From positions 3,038,001 through 3,102,000 of the forward strand of contig NZ_CP096276.1 of assembly GCF_024662235.1 (NCBI RefSeq): a DNA stretch of 64,000 nt. The letters run 5' to 3'. The translations under genes were made by a program, and so were the position numbers. Positions 4,786-34,894 of this stretch are shown here, piece by piece. The notes beneath the pieces were generated by a model. The model searched no databases and was not told the origin of the DNA. It saw only the letters and a list, made by a program, of their open reading frames with translations. This stretch comes from Pimelobacter simplex. GTDB taxonomy: Bacteria > Actinomycetota > Actinomycetes > Propionibacteriales > Nocardioidaceae. Each line of letters opens with the position of its first letter. Positions within the stretch are counted from its first letter, which is position 1.

Positions 4786-4858
4786 TGGAGGTGAGGGGAC
4801 TCGAACCCCTGACCCCCTGCATGCCATGCAGGTGCGCTACCAGCTGCGCCACACCCCC
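4786..4858 (-). tRNA. tRNA-Ala (anticodon GGC)
   Basis: 73-nt tRNA. The acceptor stem pairs GGGGGTG with CACCTCC, followed by discriminator A. The anticodon stem CCTGC/GCAGG carries the loop ATGGCAT with GGC at positions 34-36. The T arm reads GGGGTTCGAGTCCCC. The genome encodes only ACC at the 3' end, so the CCA tail must be completed enzymatically. It has its own promoter and terminator. Its place beside the phosphatase, rsfS and nadD genes is a familiar actinobacterial arrangement. Confidence 0.96.
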
Positions 4859-29992: not shown

Positions 29993-30025
29993 ACGTTCTG
30001 TCACCCCCGCATCATTCCGTATCGC

Positions 30026-30031
30026 TACTAT
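30026..30031 (+). promoter_or_regulatory. -10 box of glgB
   Basis: TACTAT lies 7 nt before the ATG at 30039. The intervening CGGAGAG could serve as a weak ribosome-binding site if the transcript has a short leader. Confidence 0.5.
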
Positions 30032-30038
30032 CGGAGAG

Positions 30039-31965
<1,927 letters not shown>

Positions 31966-31994
<29 letters not shown>

Positions 31995-32127
31995 CGAGCG
32001 GTGTTGGCGGCCGATCGGGCAAGACGGCGGAGCGACGACGTGCCGGATCGCCCTTCGAGCGACGCCGCCGCAGCCCGATCGCGCCGCGAACGCCGCGCAG
32101 TAGGCGGGGTGCTGGGAGGCAGGCCCT
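31966..32127. repeat. Structured repeat element, copy 1 (nested inverted repeat)
   Basis: 162-bp element. The terminal arms 31966-31985 and 32108-32127 pair over 19 of 20 positions (the odd one is G-T). Inside are a perfect 9-bp stem (32012-32020 with 32073-32081, CGATCGGGC) and a 6-bp stem (CGGCGG 32025-32030 with CCGCCG 32065-32070). Four core blocks are shared with the copy at 32911-33078: 31986-32000, 32018-32035, 32060-32075 and 32094-32108, together 60 of 64 identical. No ORF of its own. It supplies the end of glgB, and its right arm abuts the Nudix promoter. No described family was recognised. Confidence 0.85.
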
Positions 32128-32132
32128 AGGGT
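32127..32132 (+). promoter_or_regulatory. -10 box of the Nudix gene, leaderless type
   Basis: TAGGGT lies 7 nt before the GTG at 32140. Its first base is the last base of repeat copy 1, so a hairpin there could influence initiation. Confidence 0.5.
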
Positions 32133-32139
32133 GATCCTC

Positions 32140-32916
32140 GTGTCCGAGCAGCCGGAGATCACCCATGCGACCGTCGACGACGGGATCGCCCGGCTGACCT
32201 GGACCTCCGGCCTCACCGAGCGCGGCTGGCAGGCCGCCGTCGACGTCGTACGACGCCAGGTGGCGGCCGCGCTGACCGACCACGACCGGGTCGAGGTCAA
32301 GGTGGCCGTCGACGACGCCGAGGGCCAGCGGATCGCGACCTGGTCCGGGCTGCGCCGCGAGGGCGTGCAGCGGCAGCGGACCGGTGACGTGGTGGTCTAC
32401 GCGCGGCTGGCCGACGACACCCCGGTGCACGAGCCTGGTGGCTTCCGGGCGCTGCTCAACTCGTTCCTGCCCCGCAAGCGCGGGATCGGCCAGATGCTCA
32501 TCCGCGACAGCGACGGGCCCGAGCCGCGGGTGCTGCTGTGCCAGCTGACCTACAAGAGCGACTGGGACCTGCCTGGTGGCGTGGTCGAGGTCGGTGAGTC
32601 GCCGCGGGTCGCGGTCAGCCGTGAGGTCGAGGAGGAGCTCAGCCTCACCATCGAGGCGGGCGCGCTCGTGCTCACCGACTGGCTGCCGCCGTGGGGTGGC
32701 TGGGACGACGCGCTGTGCCTGGTCTTCGACGGCGGGGTGCACCCGGCCTCGATCGTCCAGCAGGTGGTGCCCCAGGCCCGCGAGATCAAGAGCGCGGAGT
32801 TCCTGACCCTCGCCGAGGTGGACGAGCGGGCCGCCGACTTCACCGCTCGGCGGGTGCGGGCAGCGCTGGCGAGCCTGGCCGGGACGGGTCCGTCGTACAC
32901 GGAGTCGGGGCGCTAG
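32140..32916 (+). CDS. Nudix hydrolase with N-terminal extension
   Basis: 258 residues from the GTG at 32140, chosen for its leaderless -10; an in-frame GTG at 32131 would sit in the -10. The Nudix box in GGVVEVGESPRVAVSREVEE fits G-x5-E-x7-RE-x2-EE, though the following Gly of the consensus is Leu-Ser-Leu here. Nudix enzymes cleave nucleoside diphosphates linked to another moiety. The first 110 residues are a separate region of unknown role (WSGLRREGVQRQRTGD resembles an acetyltransferase-like piece). The gene is bracketed by two copies of the structured repeat, and its TAG lies in the left arm of the second. Confidence 0.85.
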   Translation: MSEQPEITHATVDDGIARLTWTSGLTERGWQAAVDVVRRQVAAALTDHDRVEVKVAVDDAEGQRIATWSGLRREGVQRQRTGDVVVYARLADDTPVHEPGGFRALLNSFLPRKRGIGQMLIRDSDGPEPRVLLCQLTYKSDWDLPGGVVEVGESPRVAVSREVEEELSLTIEAGALVLTDWLPPWGGWDDALCLVFDGGVHPASIVQQVVPQAREIKSAEFLTLAEVDERAADFTARRVRAALASLAGTGPSYTESGR

Positions 32917-33925
32917 GAGTCTGCTGAGCAAGGGCGCCGTCGCGAGCGTCGCGAGGCGCGTGCGATGGCAAGGCGGCGGAGTGAGGCGGTCTGGTTGACC
33001 GTTGATCGACGCCGCCGCAGCCAGCGTGCGTGCATCGCGGCGCGCAGCAGGCGGGCTTGCTCAGCGGACTCCTGGCGCCGCGCCGCTGGGCCACCAGCAC
33101 GCCCAGCACCAGGATCGCCCCGCCGAGCAGCTCACCGGTCGAGGGCACCTCGTCGAGCAGCAGCCAGGCCGAGCCGATGGCGACCGGCGGCACGAGCAGG
33201 ATCCACGGCACGACCGCGGCCGACGGGTTGCGCGAGAGCAGTCCGTTGAAGATGCCGTAGCCGACGAGCGAGGCCAGCGCGGCGGTGTAGAGCGTCGAGA
33301 CGATCGCCTGCCAGCCGAAGGCGCCGAGGCCGTCGGCCACCGCCGCCGGACCGTCGACGACGAGCGAGAGCCCCACCAGCGGCACCGGTACGACGAGCGC
33401 CGACCACACCGTCAGCGCCAGCCCGCCGGTCGCTCCGGAGGCGCGCGAGACGACATTGCCGATCGCCCACATGAGCGCCGCGACCAGGCACAGCAGCAGC
33501 GCGAGGGCCGGGACGTGACCGCCGCGGCCCAGGCCGACGACGACCAGCCCGGCCGCGCCGAGCACGACGCCGGCGGTCTGCGGGCGGGTGGGGCGCTCGC
33601 GCAGGGCGACGGCGGCGATGAGGATCGTGAGCACCACCTGGGCCTGGAGCACCAGGCCCGCCAGTCCGGGCGGCATGCCGGCGTCCATGGCGACGTACAG
33701 GAAGCCGAACTGGCCCAGCGACATGAACGTCCCGACCGCCACCACCGTGCGCCACGGGACCGGCGGCGGGTCGAGCAGGAAGACCGCGGGCACCACGACG
33801 GCGAGGAAGCGCGCCGCGACGAACAGCAGCGGCGGGACCTCGCCCATCCCCCAGTCGATGACGACGAAGTTGAAGCCCCAGATCACGGCCACGAGGGCGG
33901 CGAGGGACTGGTCGCGGCGGGTCAC
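32840..33925 (-). CDS. EamA/DMT family transporter with repeat-derived C-terminal tail
   Basis: 361 residues from a GTG at 33925. Residues 1 to about 280 form a standard ten-helix drug/metabolite transporter with two EamA repeats (AALVAVIWGFNFVVIDWG at the start; ALMWAIGNVVSRA in the second half). The normal protein would end near VLVAQRRGA. Instead the frame continues through structured repeat copy 2 (about residues 283-338, Cys/Pro/Arg-rich) and then antisense to the Nudix gene end (residues 339-361), overlapping it by 77 nt. Divergent from lysR, which may regulate it. Confidence 0.82.
   Translation of the reverse strand: MTRRDQSLAALVAVIWGFNFVVIDWGMGEVPPLLFVAARFLAVVVPAVFLLDPPPVPWRTVVAVGTFMSLGQFGFLYVAMDAGMPPGLAGLVLQAQVVLTILIAAVALRERPTRPQTAGVVLGAAGLVVVGLGRGGHVPALALLLCLVAALMWAIGNVVSRASGATGGLALTVWSALVVPVPLVGLSLVVDGPAAVADGLGAFGWQAIVSTLYTAALASLVGYGIFNGLLSRNPSAAVVPWILLVPPVAIGSAWLLLDEVPSTGELLGGAILVLGVLVAQRRGARSPLSKPACCAPRCTHAGCGGVDQRSTRPPHSAALPSHAPRDARDGALAQQTPSAPTPCTTDPSRPGSPALPAPAER
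32911..33078. repeat. Structured repeat element, copy 2 (nested inverted repeat)
   Basis: Second copy, 168 bp, in the same orientation as the first. Outer arms 32915-32932 (AGGAGTCTGCTGAGCAAG) and 33056-33073 pair 17 of 18, and extend to about 32911/33078. An inner imperfect stem pairs 32957-32969 with 33020-33032, and the 6-bp CGGCGG/CCGCCG stem lies at 32974-32979 and 33012-33017. The core block CGACGCCGCCGCAGCC (33007-33022) is identical to copy 1. The outer arms differ in sequence from copy 1 but keep self-complementarity. It spans the Nudix stop codon and encodes the EamA tail on the minus strand. Confidence 0.85.
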
Positions 33926-33985
33926 CGGTCCAGGATCCCCGCCCTGACCTTGAAGCACCAGCGAATGATCATGCACCTTTTGATG

Positions 33986-33991
33986 TAGCGT
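33986..33991 (+). promoter_or_regulatory. -10 box of the LysR-type gene, leaderless type
   Basis: TAGCGT lies 6 nt before the ATG at 33998. An ATGATCAT palindrome at 33965-33972, within the 72-bp divergent region, is a candidate autoregulatory site. Confidence 0.5.
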
Positions 33992-33997
33992 CGCTGC

Positions 33998-34894
33998 ATG
34001 ATCGATCTCGACGCCCTGGTCGGCCTGCGGGCCGTCGCGACCCACGGCTCGGTGGTCGCCGCGGCGGCCGCGACGGGCTTCACGCCCAGCGCGATCTCGC
34101 AGCAGGTCAAGCGCCTGGAACGGCAGACCGGCGTCCCGCTGCTGGAGCGGGTGGGCCGCGGCGTCATGCTGACCAGCCACGGCCGGCACCTCGTGGACGC
34201 CGGCGAGCAGGTGCTCGCCGACCTGGAGCAGCTCGAGTCCCGGCTCCAGCAGCGCGCGGGCGTGGTCGCGGGACGGGTCCGGCTCGCCGCCTTCTCGACC
34301 GCGATGCGCGGCCTGGTCGCCACGATCGCCCGCGACCTGCGCGACGCCCACCCCGACCTCACGCTCACCCTGCGCGAGGGCGAGCCGTGGGACGTCGTCG
34401 ACCTCGTCGCCAGCGGTCAGGTCGAGCTCGGCATCGTGCACCGGTGGGGCGGCGTCCCGCTCGCCGTGCCCGACCACGTCGTGGCCACCCGCCTCGCCGA
34501 CGACCTGGCCGAGCTCATCGTCCACCGCGACGACCCGCTCGCCGCGCGCTCCCGGGTCACCCCGCACGACCTGGTCGACGTCGACTGGATCGCCACGCCC
34601 GAGGGCACGATCTGCCGCCAGTGGCTCTCCCGCATGTACGACGGCACGGGCCGCCCGCCGCGCATCGCCCACATCTCCGCCGAGTTCGACTCCCACCTGG
34701 CGCTGGTCCGCGCCGGCCTCGGCGTCGCGCTCGTGCCCCGCATGGGGCGGGCTCCGCTCGGGGACGACCTGGTCGCCGTACCGGTCGCGGAGCCGGAGCC
34801 GATCCGCCTCGTGGACGCCCTGCACCGCCGGACGATGGCCGAATCGCCGGCGGTGCAGGCCGTGCTCACTGCCTTCAGCAGGATCAGCGGCTGA
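33998..34894 (+). CDS. LysR-type transcriptional regulator
   Basis: 298 residues. N-terminal winged helix-turn-helix (residues 3-62) with GSVVAAAAATGFTPSAISQQ as recognition region and LLERVGRGVMLTSHG as the wing, followed by a linker helix and a periplasmic-binding-like effector domain from about residue 88. Divergent from the EamA transporter gene, the classical LysR-target arrangement; the effector is unknown. The ORF ends 3 nt before the convergent LPXTG protein gene stop. Confidence 0.92.
   Translation: MIDLDALVGLRAVATHGSVVAAAAATGFTPSAISQQVKRLERQTGVPLLERVGRGVMLTSHGRHLVDAGEQVLADLEQLESRLQQRAGVVAGRVRLAAFSTAMRGLVATIARDLRDAHPDLTLTLREGEPWDVVDLVASGQVELGIVHRWGGVPLAVPDHVVATRLADDLAELIVHRDDPLAARSRVTPHDLVDVDWIATPEGTICRQWLSRMYDGTGRPPRIAHISAEFDSHLALVRAGLGVALVPRMGRAPLGDDLVAVPVAEPEPIRLVDALHRRTMAESPAVQAVLTAFSRISG

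Follow-up and report, generated by a model that had tools for sequence, protein, structure and literature searches.

A widespread, apparently undescribed family of hairpin repeats in Nocardioides and relatives, probably MITE-like, whose conserved fold is strand specific and whose orientation is linked to replication

Two copies of a nested, self-complementary repeat lie close together in the 64,000-nt stretch of Pimelobacter simplex DNA analyzed here (the window), raising the question of what kind of element they are and how they came to be there. Rechecking of the coordinates and the alignment placed both elements where the original prediction had put them, in the same orientation. Copy 1 occupies 31967..32126 (160 nt) on the + strand, the best-folding strand, as delimited by a match to covariance model R1, the fold, and empty sites in loci L096 and L195; its conserved core of nested stems and asymmetric internal loops lies at 31986..32110 (+ strand; R1 match, 131.9 bits). 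Copy 2 occupies 32916..33072 (157 nt, + strand), as delimited by the R1 match, the fold, and its absence from loci L096, L097, L103, and L104, with its conserved core at 32934..33057 (+ strand; R1 match, 126.4 bits). These were the only strong core-model matches in the window, the next one reaching 18.3 bits (E 0.12). The self-complementary structure claimed for both copies was borne out: their folds lay about 10 SD below those of dinucleotide shuffles (z of -9.84 for copy 1 and -10.18 for copy 2), 0 of 200 shuffles reached the stability of either copy, and framing inverted repeats of 34 nt (88% complementary) and 33 nt (85%) were found around copies 1 and 2, respectively. Each copy, about 160 nt long, folds into an almost unbroken hairpin that contains internal loops. 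When the two copies were aligned, the conserved blocks surrounded the loops, and the arms differed between the copies and paired inside each.

The neighbors of the copies are an alpha-amylase-type gene (CBM_48), which probably encodes a branching enzyme, a Nudix gene that is also present in relatives, and an EamA gene. The ORF upstream of copy 1 receives its stop codon from inside the element (31992-31994), and copy 2 is placed in the stop codon of the Nudix gene. The EamA reading frame (window 32840-34825, - strand) meets no stop in copy 2 and continues into the Nudix gene, as though copy 2 had displaced the EamA stop codon when it inserted.

The two window copies were used to build a covariance model of their 126-nt core, which yielded 38 matches in their own genome (G000) at up to E 10, the weakest of which had an E value of 0.054. 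At E<=1, the model matched 35 of the 58 genomes searched within the order (own genome included). In the same genus, 26 of 37 genomes had matches (32 in G025, 21 in G014, and 18 in G008, for example), and the other 11 had no core-model match at this threshold; among genomes of other genera, 9 of 21 had matches, mostly weak ones. A strict pattern search found at least 119 stretches in named genomes, mainly of Nocardioides, with further matches in Kribbella, Pimelobacter, and MAGs labelled Acidimicrobiales, Frankiales, and Nostocoides. Of these loci, 80 entered a model search with 91 matches, of which 83 were used and 8 were dropped (two repeats of others, one cut by the locus end, and five weak). 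Thus, the further copies in the host and related genomes on which the original prediction had been staked do exist. The prediction that the repeat belongs to no Rfam-type family also held, with no match of the elements at the gathering score or at E<=1; the sole Rfam match of the window was a tRNA gene (4786-4858, - strand). A limited search of the open-access literature found no description of the family. These results indicate a repeat family that is widespread in Nocardioides and relatives and apparently undescribed. In loci L018 and L030, from genomes of another genus (g3), the outer loop motifs were kept and the inner part of the core was different; this type is possibly a sister family.

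Conservation of the fold was assessed in alignment A4, which comprised 56 of 63 non-redundant cores, the seven left out being aberrant (L018 and L030 among them). Standard pairs filled 93.7% of the cells at the 26 pairs. Cells changed on both sides numbered 220 (shuffles, 67.5; slid controls, 35-49), and such changes occurred at 19 of the 26 pairs of a structure that was inferred as RNA, which favours G.U; the copies are related by descent, and these pair counts, like the arm counts that follow, are not independent. The outer arms, which lie outside the model, paired at 15.3 of 18 positions within copies versus 8.8 between copies. They fell into 74 arm types among 170 copies and paired in 162 of these, so the loss of arm pairing that had been named as grounds for abandoning the prediction did not appear. 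Several unpaired loop bases were invariant or nearly so. The fold is therefore kept by compensatory change although the sequence of the arms varies.

The fold is also strand specific. With RNA parameters, the + strand folded more stably than the complementary strand in 144 of 144 copies, and with DNA parameters it did so in 143 of 144; in the flanking DNA used as a control, it was more stable in 30 of 56 cases. G.T outnumbered A.C in the outer arms (144 vs 51) and in the core (141 vs 18, by a hand count on a structure that was inferred as RNA, which favours G.U). These results support a single-strand role of the fold. The arm pairing across so many arm types, the compensatory changes, the greater stability of the + strand, the G.T excess in the outer arms, and the invariant loop bases would all be expected if the folded + strand hairpin were the substrate of a structure-recognizing candidate enzyme and were joined at gaps at the replication fork, with arm sequence free and pairing and loop bases constrained; the evidence on insertion and on enzymes bears on this reading below.

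The original prediction had found no target-site duplication, which proved wrong: comparison with empty sites revealed a duplicated TA, one half of which has changed at each site. Copy 1 was absent from L096 (G014) and L195 (Nocardioides sp. LHD-245), both of which read CACCCGTAGGGTGA where the window has CACCC-CA-[element]-TA-GGGTGA; because of one additional base, this empty site is not letter-perfect. By this comparison, the left half of the duplication lies at 31965..31966 (now CA) and the right half at 32127..32128 (TA), neither assigned a strand. The latter two positions are the first two bases of a TAGGGT that, we assume, resembles a putative -10 box of the Nudix gene. At copy 2, for which the four loci named above lack the element, the left half (TA, 32914..32915) belongs to the stop codon of the Nudix ORF (TAG, 32914-32916), and the right half (33073..33074), identified by comparison with relatives, is now TG; these, too, are unstranded. 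At the intergenic site of copy 2, L195 carries an unrelated palindrome or hairpin (about 1110-1191). A third site was occupied in L195 and empty in the window near 30021-30081.

The empty-site comparison identified the target as CTAG with TA duplicated. CTAG adjoined a border in 76 of 157 copies, compared with 2 and 1 in the control zones, and TA was present at both borders in 60 of 157, compared with 3 and 3. The recent G025 copy L265 is flanked by AT on both sides, which speaks for a true 2-bp duplication. Insertion of the core into pre-existing terminator hairpins was rejected for copies 1 and 2, the empty sites of which contain no arm sequence. A distant blastn search of copy 1 against plasmid and phage records gave no match. 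The elements are short (about 160 nt), dispersed (38 matches in their own genome), and without a transposase gene, and have terminal inverted repeats in the form of the outer arms and a TA duplication at CTAG, as in MITEs. Together with the empty sites and arms like IS5-type ends (see below), this supports one of the options first proposed, a short mobile repeat that relies on an enzyme encoded elsewhere. Double-strand insertion would be expected to leave a TA duplication, and its presence counts against the folded-strand substrate.

Hairpins of about 57-63 bp that contain both outer arms and have the core deleted were found at G000:C1:5927484-5927540 (L086), G000:C1:1749869-1749931 (L084), and G025:C1:3604831-3604893 (L279), and are internal-deletion derivatives of the element. 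A 10-copy insertion sequence of G000:C1 (loci L070-L079), which looks IS481-like (a putative assignment), has TGTACCCGGCCAGGACG ends, adjoins CTAG, and stands directly beside an element or remnant in at least four cases (L070, L072, L074, and L078). A flank common to several copies was rejected as part of the element, being the end of this separate insertion sequence beside CTAG.

Which enzyme could move the elements was examined through their arms. The arms that occur most often in the own genome, CTAGGGCGTGTCTCCCAAG, correspond to the termini of IS5-type insertion sequences. Arms of the CTAGGGCGTGTCTCC type match IS5-type ends in G000, G034, and G009, and in five of eight plasmid IS5 copies (Microbacterium, Pseudonocardia, Dietzia, Arthrobacter, and Leifsonia), the remaining three showing no convincing repeat. 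To the other arm types, including AGCCTGGATCCACCGAT, AGAGGTTCCGCC, and GGCCGTGTTGGTAAAG, no insertion sequence was matched here. By eye, the arms of copy 1 agree with IS5 ends at 10 of the first 12 bases, and those of copy 2 show no resemblance. The sole IS5 copy in the own genome has two frame changes in its coding stretch and appears interrupted, and one of the two could be programmed.

Ends common to an autonomous element were thus seen for the commonest arm type, and none were found for the arms of G025. This genome contains 32 copies, several almost identical, and gave no PF13340, PF01609, or RVT_1 match; PF13340 was also absent from G014, G032, G008, and G010. A search of G025 for its arm sequence with up to three mismatches returned only elements or, in five extra places read, apparently truncated or deleted elements, and an autonomous parent with the same ends was accordingly set aside. 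The mobilizing enzyme of the G025 copies may have been lost, may reside on a transient element, or may belong to a family (such as IS630, IS3, IS110, IS256, or the tyrosine recombinases) other than those searched, which were PF01797 (Y1), RVT_1, PF01609, and PF13340. An IS200/REP mechanism was rejected on the lack of a Y1 transposase (PF01797; 0 of 16 genomes, with control genomes positive in 5 of 14), and reverse transcription on the absence of RVT_1 from six of eight element-rich genomes, G000 and G025 included (it was present in G014 and G034).

These two absences and the identity of the commonest arms with IS5-type ends add to the case against the folded-strand substrate, which we consider doubtful. 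Extended to its full form, it would describe a new class of replication-fork element, the mobility of which would depend on the folded + strand; an enzyme other than a Y1 transposase or a reverse transcriptase would recognize this strand by shape and loop bases instead of arm sequence, the element entering lagging-strand gaps with fixed polarity and borrowing whatever IS5-like ends are available; we offer this only tentatively.

The orientation of the copies also speaks for the folded-strand substrate. The dnaA gene maps to 4.903 Mb in G000, and in G025 and G032 it sits where the contig begins; for the terminus, a position opposite dnaA was assumed. The + strand ran against fork movement in 34 of 38 matches in G000 (p 6e-7 vs 0.5), in 23 of the 27 matches listed in G025 (of 32; p 3e-4 vs 0.5), in six of the seven listed in G032 (of 10), and in two of four in G001 (all four counted); G027, G045, and draft genomes were not counted. 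Against a 65% expectation, p was 0.0006 in G000 and 0.018 for the listed G025 matches. The origin that best fitted the strand alone lay at 4.75-4.85 Mb in G000; for G025, the corresponding range was 4.5 to 0.1 Mb. In two genomes, orientation by itself thus locates the origin to about 150 kb or less from dnaA. In G000, all 30 copies most similar to another copy obeyed the fork rule, and the four exceptions were among the eight most divergent; in G025, three of the eight youngest copies went with the fork. Overall, there was no age trend (14 of 17 young and 43 of 48 old copies obeyed). By a hand count, the separate 10-copy insertion sequence of G000 was opposed to the fork in 3 of 10 cases. Neighboring genes do not explain the orientation, since for only 9 of 30 copies would transcription from the upstream gene read the + sense, and since at L003 and L055 both flanking genes run against the fork and the element still obeys the fork rule. 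Reasoning from fork geometry, the + strand would lie on the leading-strand template and equal the nascent lagging-strand sequence, the opposite of IS200/IS605. Gomez et al. (2014) are said to have dealt with element orientation and the beta clamp.

The best explanation, to which we assign a probability of about 0.68, is that the repeats are non-coding, non-autonomous MITE-like elements of about 160 nt that insert at CTAG with TA duplication, and that IS5-type DDE transposases mobilize them in trans, or once did, by way of the outer arms. It draws on the observed dispersal, empty sites, TA duplication, CTAG preference, and agreement of the commonest arms with IS5-type ends, and takes in the compensatory conservation of the fold, its strand asymmetry, and the orientation against the fork in two genomes. 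In this mechanism, the transposases would act in trans on the outer arms, and the other arm types would be ends used by other transposases. The folded + strand would be needed for mobility, probably in some single-stranded state; a host function at each site is unlikely because the fold is kept at unrelated sites, and selection is probably on mobility. Insertion at or through the replication fork would set the orientation, and the available text of a review describes element polarity set at the fork for other elements (PMC5371812). Several observations weigh against the MITE reading: preservation of the entire hairpin is more than a DDE transposase by itself would demand, G025 has near-identical copies yet no PF13340 or PF01609 match, the arms of copy 2 are unlike IS5 ends, and orientation was evenly divided in G001 and ran with the fork in some of the youngest G025 copies.

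Gene context bears on another option first proposed, an RNA at gene 3' ends. A home-made gene finder, applied to 30 of the 38 own-genome copies, placed a gene stop at the border of 17, put 10 between divergent genes, and left only the 9 mentioned above where the upstream gene would read the folded sense. The proposal in its original form therefore finds no support; the finder missed the EamA gene beside copy 2, which really lies between convergent genes. A structured RNA or terminator that the host selects at the ends of genes, and that a repeat-spreading process copies, would account for the covariation, the strand-specific fold, and the border stops, but the divergent contexts, the few copies read in the folded sense, the sites empty in relatives, the lack of an Rfam match, and the 11 of 37 same-genus genomes without a match make it improbable. 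Least credible of all is the idea that pairing arises from template switching between palindrome arms and orientation from the loss of copies with the better-folding strand on the lagging-strand template, with neither selection for mobility nor targeted insertion: four both-side changes even between same-site copies of two species (four site pairs) and the internal-deletion derivatives fit it, but invariant unpaired bases and asymmetric loops need selection, orientation does not grow with divergence, and same-site pairs had 4 paired changes versus 13 broken, compared with 561 versus 680 at different sites (120 of 283 pairs sampled), a comparison that is no more than suggestive, because both groups have more breaks.

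The family has a wider interest. A single-strand fold that is conserved while arm sequences turn over offers a testable case of fold- and fork-dependent small elements, and the family, which has no Rfam model, is common in Nocardioides, occurs in Kribbella, and sits in stop codons and promoters.

Among known systems, the Correia repeat enclosed elements (CREE) of Neisseria are similar in being short, non-coding inverted-repeat elements with a characteristic core and a target duplication; the text of PMC2649163 consulted gives lengths of 104-108 or 153-157 bp, binding of the hairpin RNA by RNase III, and a mobilizing mechanism not determined. Compared by description, CREE ends are a few fixed sequences, whereas here 74 arm types pair within copies; CREE also have other hosts, and the same portion of that paper notes no replication orientation. 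RUP, BOX, and SPRITE of Streptococcus pneumoniae are likewise dispersed short repeats, and in the part of PMC3049150 available RUP ends resemble IS630-Spn1 and BOX ends ISSpn2. According to that part, 60.8%, 60.9%, and 63.3% of them are on the leading strand, mirroring genes, compared with the 34 of 38 and 23 of 27 listed matches here, and the arms here, unlike theirs, do not have a single fixed sequence. The IS5-type elements that end in CTAGGGCGTGTCTCC share the end sequence of the commonest arms and the CTAG site, but they encode a transposase, and the conserved core was not seen by eye near their ends. IS200/IS605 and REP elements are hairpin-based and strand specific, with an orientation that follows replication (PMC5371812, available text); here, no Y1 transposase was found in 16 genomes, a TA duplication is present, and, by the reasoning above, the better-folding strand would lie on the leading-strand template, with polarity opposite to that of IS200/IS605. 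The family is thus probably a variant of the MITE kind, new in the strand specificity of its conserved fold and in its link between orientation and replication, both of which exceed the degree shown by the repeats in the portions of the papers compared.
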